From an uncultured Oligoflexia bacterium (lineage in GTDB: Bacteria > Bdellovibrionota > Bacteriovoracia > Bacteriovoracales > Bacteriovoracaceae), in NCBI GenBank assembly GCA_950061135.1, contig CATLVU010000001.1:16049-80048 (forward strand): 64,000 nucleotides of DNA, given 5' to 3'. Position numbers and translations under genes: made by a program. This document shows positions 2,969-13,309 of this stretch, piece after piece. The notes under the pieces were generated by a model. That model was not told the origin of the DNA, made no database searches, and worked only from the letters and a program-made list of their open reading frames with translations. Within the stretch, counting starts at the first letter, position 1; each line of letters starts with the position of its first letter.

Positions 2969-4018
2969 TTATAAAGCTTGTAGCTTCACTTTCAATTTCT
3001 TTTTCTTATCATCTCTAAGGTATTCAACTGTTATAGTATCACCAATTTTGTACTTGCCAACTTCTTGATAGATATCATCCTTTGTATTCACCTCAACACC
3101 ATTTACTTTTAAAATAACATCACCAAGATATATTCGGCCAAAGCGATCACGCATCATTCCTTTAAGTCCTGCTATACCGGCAGCTCCATCAGGATCAACA
3201 AATGAAAGCACCACGCCTTTATCTCCAACATAACGATATTTAATTTCATCATCCAGCACTCCTATTCCCAGTCCAGGCCTGATGACTTTACCATGCTCAA
3301 TAAGCTGAGGTACGATTTTAGAGACTGTATCAACTGGAACTGCAAAACCAAGCCCTGCACTGGTAGCAGAAGTAGAAACAATCATTGTATTTACACCAAT
3401 AAGATGCCCGTTAGAGTTGAGTAATGGCCCACCAGAATTTCCTCTATTGATCGCAGCATCAGTTTGGATCATATTGTGAATCTTTACACCACCAATACCA
3501 TCCATTTTTCTCTCTAGGGCAGAAATAATACCTTTTGAGATTGAATGATCAAAACCAAACGGGTTTCCAATTGCTAATGCCATTTGGCCGACTTGTAAAT
3601 CCTTTGAAGTTCCAACTTTTATAGGTCTAAGATCATCAGGCATTGTTTCAAGTTTTAAAACAGCAATATCTTTTGTGGGTGCAACACCTACAACTTTAGC
3701 TTTATATTGCTTAGAGTTTTTTCTAAAAGTAACCATAAAATTATCCCCGCCTTGGACAACGTGATAATTTGTTACAATATGACCTTTAGTATCCCAAACA
3801 AACCCCGTACCAGTACCCTGTGGAACTTCGACTTTTCCGTAAAAGAAACTATCAGCAACTCTAATATTTGAGACGTTTACTACCGAATCTACGTTTGACT
3901 TGTAGATTTCAATAACTTTATTTTCAACAGGAAGCAGCTTTTTGTTAGTATCTTGCTTCACTTCCACAGCATGACAATTAACTAAAAATAGAGAAAAAAT
4001 AATCGCTAAAAATTTCAT
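2969..4018 (-). CDS. HtrA/DegP-like trypsin-type serine protease with one PDZ domain
   Basis: The protein is a periplasmic quality-control protease of the S1C family. Taking the ATG at 4018 (349 residues), which has an AAAGGA ribosome site seven bases upstream, gives a signal peptide; the ORF-track start at 4048 adds ten residues without such support. The catalytic triad is visible as His86 (TNYHVV), Asp117 (TKDIAVLKL) and Ser195 (NRGNSGGPL). One PDZ domain follows at about 240-345, so it resembles DegS or short HtrA proteins rather than two-PDZ DegP. A cysteine at the signal-peptide end (LVNC) might be lipidated, but Asn at -1 is unusual. A Crp-like gene follows. Confidence 0.9.
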   Translation of the reverse strand: MKFLAIIFSLFLVNCHAVEVKQDTNKKLLPVENKVIEIYKSNVDSVVNVSNIRVADSFFYGKVEVPQGTGTGFVWDTKGHIVTNYHVVQGGDNFMVTFRKNSKQYKAKVVGVAPTKDIAVLKLETMPDDLRPIKVGTSKDLQVGQMALAIGNPFGFDHSISKGIISALERKMDGIGGVKIHNMIQTDAAINRGNSGGPLLNSNGHLIGVNTMIVSTSATSAGLGFAVPVDTVSKIVPQLIEHGKVIRPGLGIGVLDDEIKYRYVGDKGVVLSFVDPDGAAGIAGLKGMMRDRFGRIYLGDVILKVNGVEVNTKDDIYQEVGKYKIGDTITVEYLRDDKKKKLKVKLQAL

Positions 4019-4108
4019 AGAAAATCCTTTCTTAATTGAGCTTTGCATTGTTTTTATATCCAGTTATATTAGTAAAATTCACGTAAAAATTCTAGCAAGG
4101 ATTAAAAA

Positions 4109-5020
4109 ATGGAGCAGAGTGACAATATAGCTTTTTATAATAGATATTCTCAGAATATTGATTATGAGAAAATTTACGGCAAAAAAGCGATAGAATTTGT
4201 TTATGAAAATAAAATAGGCCAAATGCTACTACCTATTGTTACAAGTTCGACAGTTAGTAAGGTATATGGCCATCTACAAAATACAAAATACTCCGCTAAA
4301 AAAGTTCCTGAATTTATTAAAAGTTATAATATTCAAATTAATGAATTTGAGAAGGGAAGTAATCGTTTAAAACCTATTGAAGAGTCTTATATAAACTTTA
4401 ATGAATTCTTTATAAGAAAGTATAAAAAAGGATTACGAAGCTTTCCTGAGGTATCAGATGAATTAGGAGCTCCTGCAGAAGGAAGATATTTTGGGTATTC
4501 AAAAGTGGATGCTAACACCAAAATCCCTGTGAAGGGTAAGTTCTTATCGGTTCAAAACTTGTTATTAGATGAGCGCTTCTTTGAGCCCTTCATCGATGGA
4601 CCATTGGTTATTTCAAGACTATGTCCCGTAGATTATCATCGTTATCACTATCCTGATGATGGCTCTACTGTTGATTCATATACAATTCCAGGAGAGCTAC
4701 ATTCAGTGAATCCGATGGCCCTAAGTTTTAAAGAGGATATTTTTATTAAAAATGAGAGAAGAGTTTCTATTTTAGAGACAAAAAACTTTGGAACAATGGC
4801 CTATATTGAAGTCGGCGCAACTTGTGTAGGGAAAATTGTTCAATCCCACGATGAAGATATTGAGTTTATACGAGGACAAGAAAAAGGTTATTTTCTATTT
4901 GGTGGAAGTACTGTCATCATTCTCGGTGAAAAGGGAAGGTGGGCGCCAAGCTCTGACATTCTCAACAATACACAGAACGGTATTGAAACTTATATCAGAC
5001 TTGGCGATAAGATAAATTAA
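4109..5020 (+). CDS. psd: Phosphatidylserine decarboxylase proenzyme
   Basis: The enzyme converts phosphatidylserine to phosphatidylethanolamine at the inner membrane. The 303-residue proenzyme has the self-cleavage motif FLFGGST, with Ser267 expected to become the pyruvoyl group. It also has the conserved RLCPVDYHRYHYPDDG segment and the VGATCVGKIVQ region near the cleavage site. Length and the GGST rather than LGST motif fit the longer, Clostridium-type PSD subgroup. The ATG has an AAGGA site eight bases upstream. It is divergent from the HtrA-like gene and overlaps the convergent lipoprotein gene by four bases at the 3' end. Confidence 0.95.
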   Translation: MEQSDNIAFYNRYSQNIDYEKIYGKKAIEFVYENKIGQMLLPIVTSSTVSKVYGHLQNTKYSAKKVPEFIKSYNIQINEFEKGSNRLKPIEESYINFNEFFIRKYKKGLRSFPEVSDELGAPAEGRYFGYSKVDANTKIPVKGKFLSVQNLLLDERFFEPFIDGPLVISRLCPVDYHRYHYPDDGSTVDSYTIPGELHSVNPMALSFKEDIFIKNERRVSILETKNFGTMAYIEVGATCVGKIVQSHDEDIEFIRGQEKGYFLFGGSTVIILGEKGRWAPSSDILNNTQNGIETYIRLGDKIN

Positions 5021-6444
5021 AAATTACTCAAACTTTTAATTTTTAAAGATAGGTTTAGATCGGAATAGCGATAAAATGTTTTTTTACGCTTACTAATTTC
5101 ATGTTTTGAGTCGCATTTATATTTATGAACTCCACTTTCATATTTTTTGTTATTTTTAAAAGAGATATGAAAACTTAAGTTGTTCTCTCTTCTCGCCTCA
5201 AGACTGGTAAAAAAAGATTTAAATTCTTTGTAATAGACTGTACGACTATTGATATGAAATTGAAGGTATTTATCAATATTTTTGGCAGTAAGTTTGATAG
5301 TTTTACTTTCTTGATGTGTTTGAGTGATAGAACATTTAATTTTTTTTATATAATCTCGCTCTAGCCCATCCATGTGGATTGAGATTGTTTTTCTTTTCGT
5401 TTGAGTTATTGCACTTGAAAGTTTAAAGCTACCATGAATAATGACATCTGCCTTGGATAGGTTCTTAAGAGAAAGAGTCTTTGGAAGCTTACGATACGTT
5501 TTTGTGTAAGTCTTATTCCAAGATGCGTACTTAATAATTTCAGACTTTTTAATGTAAATGAGTTGTAGATTATCGAGAGGCGTAGGTTTAAAATTTGTTT
5601 TTTGATTTTTTCTATTTAATAAGATCCAATAACTAGGGTCCTTTATTCTAGAGGATTGTACTTTGTTTAGAAATGAGTTATTTTTTTTACCAACACTTAG
5701 TATTTCTGACTCTTTATTAAACTTAATCTCAGGGTAGATTTCTCTTAGCCCTTCTTGGAGAGTTAGCTTGCTGGATACTGAATATGATTTTAGTTTTCCA
5801 TCAAAGATTGTGACTTTATAGGTGTTGTTGTTAACACTTTTTTCAAATTCGCTAAAATGTTGTTCATTCTTATTACGTTCAAAAATAAAGTCCTGAACTG
5901 TAGCAATCATAGTATTTGATAATAATTTATTTGCAACGACTACTTCTTCTTGTTTTGGTAAGATATTGAAATAGGAATTTTTTATAGTTTGATACTTGAG
6001 AATGAAACTTGAATTCTTGGTGTCTCTAATTCTAAGGTTTTGCTTAAAGGTCGATGTGTTAAAACGCGTATTCTTTTCAACTCCACTTATAGTAAAGGAA
6101 TGAGGATCAGGTAAATTAAACCTTACTTCAGGCTTTTGAATCTGTTTGAAAAGATCAGTATAAAAAACAGTTCTGTTTAATGTCGTTTTATTTACTTTAA
6201 GCGACCGTGTTTTATTTTGGCTCTCTTGCTCTATATCTAAATCAATTGAGTATTGAGGGTAGTCAGCAATATAAGGATTCGGATCATTTTTACTTGTAAG
6301 AAAATCACCATCGATATCATCTGCGATAATTTTTTGAGGCCCAGGATTGGATGAATAGGAATATGTACCATTTCCTGTTTTATTGTTTTTGCCACAAGCA
6401 ATAAATAAACTAGTAGTTAAGAATAGAATTACAAATGTTTTCAT
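5017..6444 (-). CDS. Predicted lipoprotein of unknown function, last gene of sigma54-linked operon
   Basis: I do not recognise this 475-residue family. It starts with a signal peptide and lipobox ending FIAC (Cys17), followed by a Gly/Ser/Asn-rich linker and an Asp-rich stretch, DDIDGDFLTSKNDPNPY, resembling the calcium-binding loops of thrombospondin type 3 repeats. The rest is Lys/Ser/Thr-rich, probably beta-rich, with only two further cysteines near the C-terminus that could pair. The ATG has a GGGGAG site and lies inside the end of the upstream gene, so the three genes 7237-5017 form an operon. The sigma54 promoter ahead of that operon makes this a regulated surface or periplasmic lipoprotein. 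Confidence 0.8.
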   Translation of the reverse strand: MKTFVILFLTTSLFIACGKNNKTGNGTYSYSSNPGPQKIIADDIDGDFLTSKNDPNPYIADYPQYSIDLDIEQESQNKTRSLKVNKTTLNRTVFYTDLFKQIQKPEVRFNLPDPHSFTISGVEKNTRFNTSTFKQNLRIRDTKNSSFILKYQTIKNSYFNILPKQEEVVVANKLLSNTMIATVQDFIFERNKNEQHFSEFEKSVNNNTYKVTIFDGKLKSYSVSSKLTLQEGLREIYPEIKFNKESEILSVGKKNNSFLNKVQSSRIKDPSYWILLNRKNQKTNFKPTPLDNLQLIYIKKSEIIKYASWNKTYTKTYRKLPKTLSLKNLSKADVIIHGSFKLSSAITQTKRKTISIHMDGLERDYIKKIKCSITQTHQESKTIKLTAKNIDKYLQFHINSRTVYYKEFKSFFTSLEARRENNLSFHISFKNNKKYESGVHKYKCDSKHEISKRKKTFYRYSDLNLSLKIKSLSNF

Positions 6445-6889
6445 AGCTATCTTCTCCCCAGAAAATAATTTTTTTTGATGATGTTTTTTTGTTTTTTGAA
6501 TCTAATGAGTCTAAAAAAGAGTTTAAATTATATAGCAAGCCTCTAAATATTTTTTCCTCAGAGCTATTCATATAGACTTTTTTTAGCTGAAATGTTTTTT
6601 GATCATTCTCAAGCCTGTTTCTAATACAGGTTTGAGTAATATCGGTAAGCTCATTGTGGAGGCTGTCTATTGTATTGAAGTTTAGTGCAAGGTCGTTTTC
6701 TATATTTTCCGCTAATGTATAACCCTGATGAGTGTTAATAACTAATTCTTTTGTTATTAGTTCAAATAATGAGCTCTCAAGTATAGATCGTTGCAGTTTA
6801 GTATTAATTTGAAGTTCTTCAAGAGTGAATGTCTTTTTTTGAATTGTTTCGATGATAAGTCTATCAATAATTGTAAGTGAATTGTTCAT
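6410..6889 (-). CDS. Hypothetical protein with winged-helix-like N-terminus
   Basis: This 159-residue protein has an N-terminal segment of about 60 residues (IIETIQKKTFTLEELQINTKLQRSI...) that reads like a winged helix-turn-helix: three helices, then a short hairpin (ELVINTHQGYTL). The remaining 100 residues look helical with no recognisable motif. It has an AAGGA ribosome site six bases before the ATG, nine bases after the previous gene, and its 3' end overlaps the lipoprotein gene by 35 bases. It could be a small DNA-binding regulator or adaptor of the operon. The assignment of the fold is from pattern only. Confidence 0.7.
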   Translation of the reverse strand: MNNSLTIIDRLIIETIQKKTFTLEELQINTKLQRSILESSLFELITKELVINTHQGYTLAENIENDLALNFNTIDSLHNELTDITQTCIRNRLENDQKTFQLKKVYMNSSEEKIFRGLLYNLNSFLDSLDSKNKKTSSKKIIFWGEDSYENICNSILNY

Positions 6890-6898
6890 ACGATGTCC

Positions 6899-7237
6899 TT
6901 AGGCTAATTGTTGATTTAGATAACGAAGATTATTATTTTTTACGTTGTGGATTTGGATTGCTTGCGCCATTTGTCCCATAATATAAGCGATTTTTTTATC
7001 AGAAAGGCACTCAAGACTTTGCTTTGACAGGTTCATGAATTGATTAATTGTCGGGGCTTGTGAGTTATTTAATAAAGCGTTTTCAAATGCTTCAAATTCT
7101 TTTAGCTTCATTTCACTTCCGTTTATTATTCTAAACACTCGAGTGAGTTGAATACCTGTTTTTTCCGATGTCTCTCTTAGAGGTTCATCAGGAAAGGCTA
7201 ATCTGTAGCGGTGTAAAATTGATGATTGTAAACTCAT
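6899..7237 (-). CDS. Hypothetical small HTH-like protein, first gene of sigma54-linked operon
   Basis: This 112-residue protein contains LRETSEKTGIQLTRVFRIINGSEMKLKEFEAFENAL (quoted in parts: a repressor-like HTH pattern of TSEKTGIQ then LTRVFRIING), similar to the XRE-type helix-turn-helix layout, followed by a mostly helical C-terminal half. The ATG has a strong AAGGAG site and lies 33 bases downstream of the -12 element of a near-perfect sigma54 promoter. It is the first gene of the operon running to the lipoprotein at 5017. A role as an autoregulator is possible; the family is not one I can name. Confidence 0.72.
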   Translation of the reverse strand: MSLQSSILHRYRLAFPDEPLRETSEKTGIQLTRVFRIINGSEMKLKEFEAFENALLNNSQAPTINQFMNLSKQSLECLSDKKIAYIMGQMAQAIQIHNVKNNNLRYLNQQLA

Positions 7238-7269: not shown

Positions 7270-7286
7270 AGCAATACTTGTGCCAA
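7270..7286 (-). promoter_or_regulatory. Sigma54 (-24/-12) promoter for the 7237-5017 operon
   Basis: On the minus strand the sequence reads TTGGCACAAGTATTGCT. This matches the RpoN consensus YTGGCACG-N4-TTGCW with the GG and GC dinucleotides exactly 12 bases apart. The -12 element lies about 33 bases upstream of the ATG of the first operon gene, leaving room for a short leader with an AAGGAG ribosome site. It sits in the 50-base gap just after the stop codon of the sigma54 activator gene. Confidence 0.88.
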
Positions 7287-7287
7287 G

Positions 7288-8622
7288 TTAGTGGTGCATT
7301 GTTTCAAAAATACGATAAAATGCTGAAGAAGAAATTTTAAGTTCTCTAATTACGTGAGTAATTTTTCCTTTGTGCTTTAACATTGAACTTTTTACACACT
7401 CTTCTTCAATTGTTCGCATAAAGTCTCGAAGACCATTTTGTTGTATGAAGTTTATTTGTGCAGGTGTTAAAAGTTGATTTGATCGCAAATTAATTTGTGT
7501 CGAGCAAGGTAGAATATCTTCAGCATCTATGATCCCTTCTGAGTTGAGGGTTAAAATATCGATAAACTTTTTTAGCTCTCGAATATTTCCAGGCCATTGC
7601 TTATCTATTATTTTTTCAAGGGCCTCTTCTTTTAGAACAACTCTTCGAGGTGATTGTTTTAAAAAGTATTTTACCAGTAGTGGGATGTCTTTTTTTCTCT
7701 CTCTGAGGGGAGGAATATTAAGGTTTAGTCCTGAAATTCTGTAGTACAAATCTTGTCTGAATTTGCCATTGGCTATTTTTTCAAACAGGTTTTCACATGT
7801 TGCTGTTATGAGGGTGAATCGACTTTGAATAACTTGATTTGAACCAACAGGACTGAAGCTTCCTGTTTCTATTGCTTGTAAGATTTTTTGTTGCATAGAC
7901 TGTGACATTGTTGCAATTTCATCTAAAAACAATGTGCCATTATGGGCCTGTTCCAGCTTTCCCTTTTTCTGTGAAGTTGCTCCTGTAAAAGCACCTTTTT
8001 CATGGCCAAAAAGTTCAGACTCTATTAAATTCTCAGAAATTTCTGAGCAATTCAGATGTATAAATGGGGCATTGTCTGGATAATTATGTGAATGAAGAAA
8101 ACGTCCAAGTATACTTTTACCAACTCCCGTTTCTCCTGTGATCAAGATTGTTTTTTCCCTTAAATCAATTTTACATAAGTTTTCGATTTGTTTTTTAAGT
8201 CCAGAGTGCTGAGTAATATAATTTTCTGAAAATAATTTCTCTAGCGGAGAGTCCTGATATTGTTTGATAAATTTTTGAATATAGGGTTTTAAGTGGGAGT
8301 TAAAACTCCGCTTTGCTAAAAAATGATTACAACCACTTAGGTAAGCTTTTTCTATTATTTTCTCATCAGTCTGTGAGCTAAGTGTGATTGTGTGGATTTT
8401 TTTGCTTTTAGCATATTTAAGAATTTCAATACCGGCTTCAGGTCCATCGATATGCATATCAACTAGGGCCAGGTCAAAATGATTATTTTGAAGCAGCTTA
8501 TGAGCTTTTAGACGGTCATCTGCTTCTGTGAATACTGCGATATCACTTAACACTGTCTTAACAGCATGGCGAAAGTATTTATCATCATCGACTAATAATA
8601 TGTGGATTGTGCCTCTTGTCAT
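7288..8622 (-). CDS. Sigma54-dependent response regulator (REC-AAA+-Fis HTH)
   Basis: This 444-residue NtrC-family enhancer-binding protein activates RpoN promoters when phosphorylated. The receiver domain (5-120) has the acidic pocket (LVDDD), phospho-acceptor Asp55, a Ser in LSS and the conserved Lys in LAKR. The AAA+ domain has Walker A GETGVGKS (163-170), the sigma54-contacting GAFTGA loop (210-215), Walker B LFLDEI (231-236) and the arginine-finger segment FRQDLYYRI. A Fis-type HTH ends the protein. No histidine kinase gene lies nearby, so its partner is elsewhere. Sigma54 promoters lie immediately on both sides of the gene (7270-7286 and 8850-8866), making their genes the likely targets. 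Confidence 0.95.
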   Translation of the reverse strand: MTRGTIHILLVDDDKYFRHAVKTVLSDIAVFTEADDRLKAHKLLQNNHFDLALVDMHIDGPEAGIEILKYAKSKKIHTITLSSQTDEKIIEKAYLSGCNHFLAKRSFNSHLKPYIQKFIKQYQDSPLEKLFSENYITQHSGLKKQIENLCKIDLREKTILITGETGVGKSILGRFLHSHNYPDNAPFIHLNCSEISENLIESELFGHEKGAFTGATSQKKGKLEQAHNGTLFLDEIATMSQSMQQKILQAIETGSFSPVGSNQVIQSRFTLITATCENLFEKIANGKFRQDLYYRISGLNLNIPPLRERKKDIPLLVKYFLKQSPRRVVLKEEALEKIIDKQWPGNIRELKKFIDILTLNSEGIIDAEDILPCSTQINLRSNQLLTPAQINFIQQNGLRDFMRTIEEECVKSSMLKHKGKITHVIRELKISSSAFYRIFETMHH

Positions 8623-8644
8623 TGGGCGATATTGCCACGGATTT

Positions 8645-8678
8645 ATTCGGAAACCAAATATTATATTTGAATTCGGAA
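8645..8678. repeat. Direct repeat ATTCGGAA x2, candidate activator-binding sites
   Basis: Two identical ATTCGGAA octamers start at 8645 and 8671, 26 bases apart, just upstream of the sigma54 activator gene. They are about 175-205 bases upstream of the plus-strand sigma54 promoter, a usual distance for enhancer sites. I found no copy near the other sigma54 promoter, so this remains tentative. The rest of the 290-base gap 8623-8912 is AT-rich. Confidence 0.35.
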
Positions 8679-8849
8679 TATTTTATAAGATTTAAACTGC
8701 CCTACTTAATTGGTGTTGAGGATAGGAAAAGCTAAATATTTACGAAGATATACATAAATACATTGTGGCTGCTAATTTTATATTAATAATAATCAATGAT
8801 TCTAACTATCTAATAATAAATTAACACCATTCTTGTAGGTCAGTTTGTG

Positions 8850-8866
8850 TTGGTATGAGAATTGCT
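8850..8866 (+). promoter_or_regulatory. Sigma54 (-24/-12) promoter for the small exported protein at 8913
   Basis: The sequence TTGGTATGAGAATTGCT has GG at 8852-8853 and GC at 8864-8865, exactly 12 bases apart, with a perfect TTGCT -12 element and a TTGG -24 element; the CAC of the consensus is TAT here. A start of transcription near 8877 would give a leader of about 36 bases before the ATG at 8913, with an AAGGAA ribosome site. Confidence 0.75.
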
Positions 8867-8912: not shown

Positions 8913-9149
8913 ATGCTCAAACTATTTACAGTTGTTATTATGTTCTACACTTCAAGCTTGTTCGCTTTTAGCAGTTTTACTACTAAAGAGTATGTGAAAT
9001 CAGATCTTTGGCAAAATGGTGTTAAAAAATCCAAAGAAGCTAAAGTACAACCATCGCATAGACAAGTCTCTTCCAAGGGACTGAACGAGGAAGTTTTAGT
9101 ACCTCTATTAAAGTTAGAAAGGGAATTAAAAATTTCTGGCCAGATTTAA
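8913..9149 (+). CDS. Small exported protein, predicted sigma54 target
   Basis: This 78-residue protein begins with a clear signal peptide (MLKLFTVVIMFYTSSLFAFS), leaving a mature peptide of about 58 residues that is Lys-rich and has no cysteine. No family is recognised. The ATG has an AAGGAA site and lies 47 bases downstream of the GC of a -24/-12 promoter. The gene is divergent from the sigma54 response regulator, which is probably its activator. Its product may be a periplasmic or surface partner of the lipoprotein encoded by the other sigma54 operon; that is inference from shared control only. Confidence 0.72.
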   Translation: MLKLFTVVIMFYTSSLFAFSSFTTKEYVKSDLWQNGVKKSKEAKVQPSHRQVSSKGLNEEVLVPLLKLERELKISGQI

Positions 9150-9170: not shown

Positions 9171-9608
9171 ATGGACAAGGTCGCTAAAATAGGCAGTTTG
9201 CTAAAAAAAATTTACAGAGTTTATTCAAACACTCTTATACAAACATTAGAAGATCAAGGCTTTCTCGATCTTCGAGTTAGCTTTCTGGAAATTTTGATCT
9301 ATATATCTCAAAACCCTAATTCTTCAATAAAACTAATTGGAGAGGCATGTGGTTTAAAAAAACAAACAATGACAAGTCATCTAAATGAACTCGAAAGAAG
9401 AGGCTATATTTCTCGTTCTCCTAGTCCACAAGATAAAAGAGAACTTCAGGTTAATTTAACAGATTACGGTATCAAGTTTAAAGTATCTCTTTTTAATGTG
9501 ATGAATCAGTTAGAAACAGAGTATGATTCCAAGTTAGGTGAAGTTGAAATGGAAAGAATTTCTTTTTCTCTAGAAAACTTTTACCAAAAAATTGATTCTA
9601 GGAGCTAA
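9171..9608 (+). CDS. MarR-family transcriptional regulator
   Basis: This 145-residue protein has the MarR winged helix: recognition helix region GLKKQTMTSHLNELERRGYISR followed by the wing SPQDKRELQVNLTDYG (the conserved DxR/K-x-x-x-x-LT signature). Flanking helices form the dimer interface. Such proteins bind palindromes and respond to small phenolic or oxidant ligands. It lies 21 bases after the small exported protein gene but has no ribosome-binding site, and a perfect palindrome sits directly upstream. It converges on a membrane-protein gene with a four-base overlap. The ligand and targets are unknown. Confidence 0.88.
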   Translation: MDKVAKIGSLLKKIYRVYSNTLIQTLEDQGFLDLRVSFLEILIYISQNPNSSIKLIGEACGLKKQTMTSHLNELERRGYISRSPSPQDKRELQVNLTDYGIKFKVSLFNVMNQLETEYDSKLGEVEMERISFSLENFYQKIDSRS

Positions 9609-12734: not shown

Positions 12735-13232
12735 TTAGTCATCACTTTGATCAAGATCATAGCCGACAGGCTTTCCTTCAGCATATTCAGCATCTTCATC
12801 ATAGTCTTCCATTTCTTTTTCTAAGTCCTCTGGAGAATCAAGGCCTTCATCATAACTCCAGCCATATCCAAAAGCATTTAAGTCCTGCTCGTCATCAGGA
12901 TTGTACTCATCTGCCAAAAAATTATTTTGATCTGTTTCTTTTTCATCTAAGTCTGAGGGCTTTTCAAGTGATTCAATTTCTGGATCATCTGGATTAATTT
13001 TTTCAGCCTTGCTTGGAATCGGAGTCGCAGCAACTTTTTCGATTACTATATCATCTTTTTTCTTAGCTACTTTTTTAGTAGCTTTTTTCTTAGCTACTTT
13101 TTTAGTAGCTTTTTTCTTAGCTACTTTTTTAGTGGCTTTTTTCTTAGCTACTTTTTTAGTAGCTTTTTTCTTTGCTACTTTTTTTGTAGTTTTTTTCTTT
13201 GCTACTTTTTTTGCAACTTTTTTCTTGGCCAT
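12735..13232 (-). CDS. Histone H1-like lysine-repeat protein with acidic tail
   Basis: Starting at the ATG at 13232 (AAGGAT site nine bases upstream; the ORF-track start at 13262 lacks one), the 165-residue protein begins MAKKKVAKKVAKKK and carries about six 9-residue repeats of the type KKVAKKKAT. It resembles the C-terminal domain of histone H1 and bacterial H1-like proteins that compact DNA or bind RNA. The second half is strongly acidic (for example LEKEMEDYDEDAEYAEG), so the protein is bipolar. The acidic tail could bind the basic half or compete with DNA. It heads the five-gene operon running to 9605. Confidence 0.85.
   Translation of the reverse strand: MAKKKVAKKVAKKKTTKKVAKKKATKKVAKKKATKKVAKKKATKKVAKKKATKKVAKKKDDIVIEKVAATPIPSKAEKINPDDPEIESLEKPSDLDEKETDQNNFLADEYNPDDEQDLNAFGYGWSYDEGLDSPEDLEKEMEDYDEDAEYAEGKPVGYDLDQSDD
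13065..13226 (-). repeat. 27-base tandem repeat inside the H1-like gene
   Basis: Six units with a 27-base period begin at 13065, 13092, 13119, 13146, 13173 and 13200 (marker AGCTAC or TGCTAC). The first four are almost identical and the last two diverge. Each unit encodes nine residues, so gain or loss of units keeps the frame. Copy number is likely to vary between strains. Confidence 0.9.
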
Positions 13233-13309
13233 TATAGTGATCCTTTTAATTATGTTTTTCATTATTTTCTATTTTAGTTAAGTAATTTTTCAATTCAATA
13301 GATTTCAAC

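Follow-up and report, generated by a model that had tools for sequence, protein, structure and literature searches.

In Borrelia, the Rrp2-RpoN-RpoS cascade relies on an NtrC-type response regulator that, together with sigma-54, turns on a further regulator, and the downstream output of the cascade consists of surface lipoproteins. The gene for an NtrC-type response regulator usually, though not universally, has a kinase gene next to it. Rrp2 has been linked with lipoprotein synthesis, and a role in controlling the exterior of bacteria has been ascribed to sigma-54 (Francke et al. 2011, PMC3162934).

Gene control in the predatory Bacteriovoracaceae is poorly understood. A literature search found no paper on a sigma-54 regulon of these predators, and the literature on sigma-54 in Bacteriovorax and Bdellovibrio yielded nothing on the genes described below. 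The 64-kb stretch of DNA analysed here (the window) belongs to a genome of this family (2.75 Mb in 178 contigs, 89% complete) that encodes RpoN. Its locus resembles the Borrelia cascade in that an NtrC-type response regulator and sigma-54 would, by analogy, activate the gene for a further transcription regulator, a likeness with which promoter conservation and predicted helix-turn-helix (HTH) folds agree and which is drawn here from sequence and models. It differs in its product, which is a pair of small predicted HTH and winged-helix (wHTH) proteins of no known family and not the sigma factor RpoS, and in that lipoprotein genes also appear to be direct sigma-54 targets. The arrangement looks like a family-wide switch that was previously undescribed; a single-copy activator with a sigma-54-driven pair of HTH-like proteins, retained across most of the family, offers a testable candidate for a lineage-wide switch of surface and exported proteins.

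The response regulator and its neighbours

The gene at 7288..8622 on the reverse strand, which the first-pass annotation had assigned to an NtrC-type activator, does encode an NtrC-type response regulator, or bacterial enhancer-binding protein (RR), and all of the gene coordinates given in that annotation proved correct. The intact open reading frame codes for 444 amino acids arranged as a receiver, an AAA+ domain and a putative C-terminal FIS-like HTH, with Pfam matches to Response_reg (7.8e-13) and Sigma54_activat (8.7e-58). The GAFTGA motif of the AAA+ domain is seen in RR itself and in a 40-sequence ortholog alignment, in which the receiver keeps its acidic cluster, D55, S82/S83 and K104, and the C-terminal HTH, ELKISSSAFYRI, is conserved, if divergent and without a Pfam HTH_8 match. 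On these features RR is an NtrC-type sigma-54 activator, with a receiver that its conserved residues suggest to be of the phosphorylatable type. It shares receiver, GAFTGA-bearing AAA+ domain and a putative FIS-like HTH with the NtrC/AtoC/ZraR group, and differs from that group in falling below every NCBIfam equivalog cut-off (best score 262 bits against a cut-off of 650), in its divergent HTH and in the lack of a linked kinase. Inspection of the gene neighbourhood found no histidine kinase gene beside RR in the window, and RR is therefore regarded as an orphan.

RR lies directly upstream of the gene for the first of the two small proteins, p112, in about 32 of 84 loci, with a gap of a few to several dozen bases between its stop codon and the -24 element of the p112 promoter that follows, and many genera share this adjacency, with the promoter just past the RR stop. 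In over half of the loci p112 and its partner p159 are found apart from RR, and most of the other genomes tested, in which RR is not beside p112, have a single strong RR ortholog elsewhere; for the first 30 loci tblastn decided whether RR was near or far, and for the remainder the DNA itself was read for the RR 3' end. Three genomes in which no p112 was detected do have RR (G006, G046 and G047, with the contig of G046 ending at that point), and one genome (G008, 85% complete) has p112 and gave no RR match at the threshold used.

Other genes adjoin RR orthologs that are not beside p112. An open reading frame of 57-72 amino acids with an H-box-like HDxN..A motif directly follows the RR ortholog at several loci (L109:1293-1490, L114:1295-1492, L115:1240-1455 and L121:1251-1469, all on the reverse strand, as well as L116 and L125) and is possibly a free-standing histidine-phosphotransfer or DHp-like mini-protein, with a HisKA match (E 0.13) in one only. 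The p112-unlinked RR orthologs at L109, L111-L114, L122 and L123 adjoin a recurrent lipoprotein gene, with CMPD or CIPD after the lipobox, and often a gene for a secreted 'LRPxxE' protein as well, and no strict sigma-54 site was found at these loci. L122 is the RR ortholog of G006, and its receiver is degenerate and without the phospho-Asp motif.

Promoter 1 and the p112-p159 operon

Just past the 3' end of RR, where a near-perfect -24/-12 promoter had been proposed, lies promoter 1 (TGGCACAAGTATTGCT, 7270-7285, reverse strand), 33 nt before the ATG of p112 (6899..7237, reverse strand). It is the sole match without mismatch to TGGCAC-N5-TTGCW in the window. A sigma-54 site stands 23-73 nt ahead of the p112 start in about 75 of the 84 distinct p112 loci, and promoter 1 combines the TGGCAY-N5-TTGCW pattern and GG/GC spacing with a place near a gene start and with conservation. 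It would drive p112, p159 (6410..6889, reverse strand) and the gene for a 475-amino-acid lipoprotein (5017..6444, reverse strand, lipobox IACG), whose start overlaps the end of p159. A lipoprotein had been expected in this operon and is indeed there, as an optional third gene, since the third position is taken by a lipoprotein, by an endonuclease-fold gene or by nothing. A CGK-type lipoprotein holds it in several RR-adjacent genomes, the window's included; homologs of the window's lipoprotein sit at the same position in L049 (E 1.6e-21) and L052 (E 1e-8), more distant syntenic ones at L045 and L046, and a short one at L047. Genes for a phosphatidylserine decarboxylase and an HtrA-like protease (window positions 4109-5020 and 2969-4048) accompany the p112 module in conserved synteny in 18 of 20 long loci of the family.

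The p112 protein is restricted to the family and single-copy: a profile search found it in 88 of 97 Bacteriovoracaceae genomes, one copy each, and a single-sequence search in 82 of 95, against one marginal profile match among about 194 other genomes of the phylum. The gene for p159 follows it in nearly all of the loci examined. The first-pass description of both proteins as HTH-like and outside known families is borne out by predicted folds and by empty family searches, neither protein having a confident family or relative in Pfam, NCBIfam or PDB sequence searches. In the AlphaFold model of p112 (pLDDT 89.9), two long helices come after a Cro/C1-like HTH, and the best Foldseek matches of p112 are consistently XRE/Cro/C1 proteins (probability about 0.9, with weak E values of 0.3-1); Pfam HTH_3 and HTH_26 match weakly, each in 2 of 36 members. 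A helical Cro/C1 (XRE) HTH fold is thus predicted for p112. The model of p159 (pLDDT 82.7) shows a winged-helix domain and, C-terminal to it, a helical part, which ends in a conserved FWG motif, and Foldseek returned winged-helix matches (best E 9e-4).

The pair shows a collinear, weak profile match to the TIGR02147 regulators, which are present in most of five family genomes searched, p112 corresponding to the N-terminal HTH and p159 to the C-terminal half; TIGR02147 is one two-domain protein, whereas here there are two separate ones. The idea of a split TIGR02147 protein was set aside, as the match is not significant (hhalign probabilities of 0.8% and 17%) and NCBIfam gave none. It would be a long shot that p112-p159 is a split and far-diverged TIGR02147-like regulator that, gated by sigma-54 and with RR as its input, serves the family as master switch for an envelope and secretome programme; were it so, the switch might in these predators govern the change between life-cycle phases.

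In the mechanism inferred here, a signal would reach a histidine kinase unlinked to RR, and the resulting hexamer of phosphorylated RR would promote the open complex at the TGGCAY-N5-TTGCT promoter of p112, so that p112 and p159 are made and, by binding DNA, provide a second layer of transcription control. It is rather probable that phosphorylated RR and sigma-54 switch on this two-protein transcription-factor operon, within a larger envelope regulon. Both flanking promoters, the gene linkage and the domain content are established by sequence comparison, and the folds of p112 and p159 are assigned by prediction.

In genomes where RR is distant, the -24 element of p112 is preceded, at 66-102 bp, by a TGTTCY-N6-RGAACA palindrome. 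It scores at least 10 of 12 in 22 of 44 RR-distant loci, against about 1.4 expected, and at least 11 in 13 of these 44, against 0.07 expected, odds that are optimistic because these very loci supplied the pattern and some of them are related; for this locus set, counting palindromes without bias gave 83, compared with 46 in shuffles (maximum 61). Elsewhere in the genomes the palindrome occurs at the chance or control level. It was not found in the RR-adjacent genomes, the window's included, and a search for an enhancer within the RR 3' end of those genomes returned nothing exceeding shuffles.

In 16 of the 18 palindrome-bearing loci checked, the palindrome is at the same time located at the 5' end of an endonuclease-fold gene in divergent orientation, which it may therefore serve, so that the palindrome's owner is uncertain. 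It could be an operator of p112 (or p159), adding autoregulation to sigma-54 gating and bringing the divergent gene under the same control, since p112 is predicted to have a Cro/C1-type HTH, a class that binds short palindromes, and the palindrome is common to an endonuclease-fold gene that elsewhere joins the p112 operon. This is possible, if doubtful, as the distance from the -24 element suits an activator enhancer and two loci (L018 and L030) have the palindrome without the divergent gene; it would be compatible with activation by RR. The missing palindrome where RR is adjacent also fits a different sigma-54 activator at the p112 promoter, of which at least eight other activator-like (EBP-like) candidates are encoded in the window's genome, with the adjacency of RR an ancestral linkage without direct control. 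The loci with RR unlinked agree with such an arrangement, which the recurrence of RR-p112 adjacency in many genera and the co-occurrence of RR and p112 as single copies nevertheless make unlikely.

Promoter 2 and the exp78-marR operon

On the other side of RR, promoter 2 (TGGTATGAGAATTGCT, 8851-8866, forward strand) lies 47 nt before the start of exp78 (8913..9149, forward strand), which encodes a small exported protein of 78 amino acids with a signal peptide and an EYVKxxLWxxG motif. The second gene of this operon encodes a MarR-type regulator (9171..9608, forward strand; Pfam MarR_2 7.4e-14). Promoter 2 has two mismatches to the consensus, a level at which about 22 chance matches are expected per window, so that independent evidence was needed. 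By position weight matrix it is the fifth-best match in the window and, after the 7270 site, the best that is intergenic with a gene behind it. A chance match was favoured first, and was dropped once orthologous loci showed a site at the equal position: measured against mononucleotide shuffles, 19 of 30 have a sigma-54-like site there at p<=0.05 and 13 of 30 at p<=0.01, and the site recurs before orthologous genes in other genera. A second promoter driving the exported protein, as first suggested, is thus weak by consensus but conserved in position, and it is on this conservation that promoter 2 was counted as a sigma-54 site of the TGGCAY-N5-TTGCW-like type with GG/GC spacing near a start. 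Both promoters flanking RR are probably real sigma-54 promoters.

The MarR ortholog is present in 82 of 95 genomes of the family, and a short exported LWxxG protein is encoded directly ahead of it in 29 of 30 loci. These partners (L218-L247) vary strongly in length and sequence and keep LWxxG, which suggests a fast-evolving exported peptide family.

The first-pass annotation saw the two promoters and their genes as a self-contained regulon; on such a reading the one RR would drive p112, p159, the lipoprotein, exp78 and MarR. Two genuine promoters do flank RR, and, as they are divergent, a single bound activator could work in both directions. When promoters and gene order were compared in relatives, the RR-p112 arrangement was recovered but the RR-exp78 adjacency was confined to the window's genome: in the other 29 loci examined exp78-marR is not next to RR, and its upstream neighbour is mostly rodA. 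The juxtaposition of the two promoters around RR is, in the genomes compared, seen only in the window's. The p112-p159 pair, too, often stands apart from RR, the lipoprotein is optional, and about 10 further intergenic sigma-54 sites occur in the window's genome. A joint regulon through a shared enhancer was rejected, there being no palindrome common to promoters 1 and 2. A self-contained regulon is accordingly improbable; exp78-marR would rather be an independent sigma-54 operon, also family-wide, that a rearrangement placed beside RR in the window's genome.

The wider sigma-54 regulon

The strict pattern TGGCAYN5TTGCW occurs 14 times in the window's genome (G000), compared with once for a reversed-pattern control, and 21 times against none in G002. 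Genes behind strict sites in G000, G002 and G276, with p112 excluded, look exported in 24 of 28 cases against 23 of 67 in the background (Fisher p 4e-6), where the background is the 67 genes of the window alone and signal peptides were called by a crude heuristic partly corrected by eye. Two target families recur among the compared sites of these three genomes: p112 is found in all three, and a secreted FVKRLDE-motif family (L069/L191/L195) has a strict sigma-54 promoter in G000 and, in two copies, in G276, which points to another conserved sigma-54 target. Since most members of the regulon are exported proteins and lipoproteins, what the switch retunes is probably the cell envelope or secretome. 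This agrees with the control of the exterior described by Francke et al. (2011, PMC3162934), the sites here mostly preceding exported or lipoprotein genes, and goes beyond it in the family-specific regulator operon, which is new; the term Bdellovibrio is absent from the text of that paper.

For activation of p112-p159 by RR and sigma-54 within this regulon, the points counted in favour are the conserved promoter 1, the RR linkage, the conserved RR residues, the predicted folds, the palindrome, the excess of sigma-54 sites, the exported targets and the exp78-marR promoter. Counted against it are the palindrome missing in RR-adjacent genomes and its possible service to the divergent gene, the other activators, the genomes with RR and without p112, G008, and the heuristic signal-peptide calls with their one-window background.

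Elsewhere in the window, the gene at 12735-13262 encodes a protein with N-terminal tandem lysine-rich AKKKATKKV repeats, perhaps a nucleoid-associated or histone-like tail.
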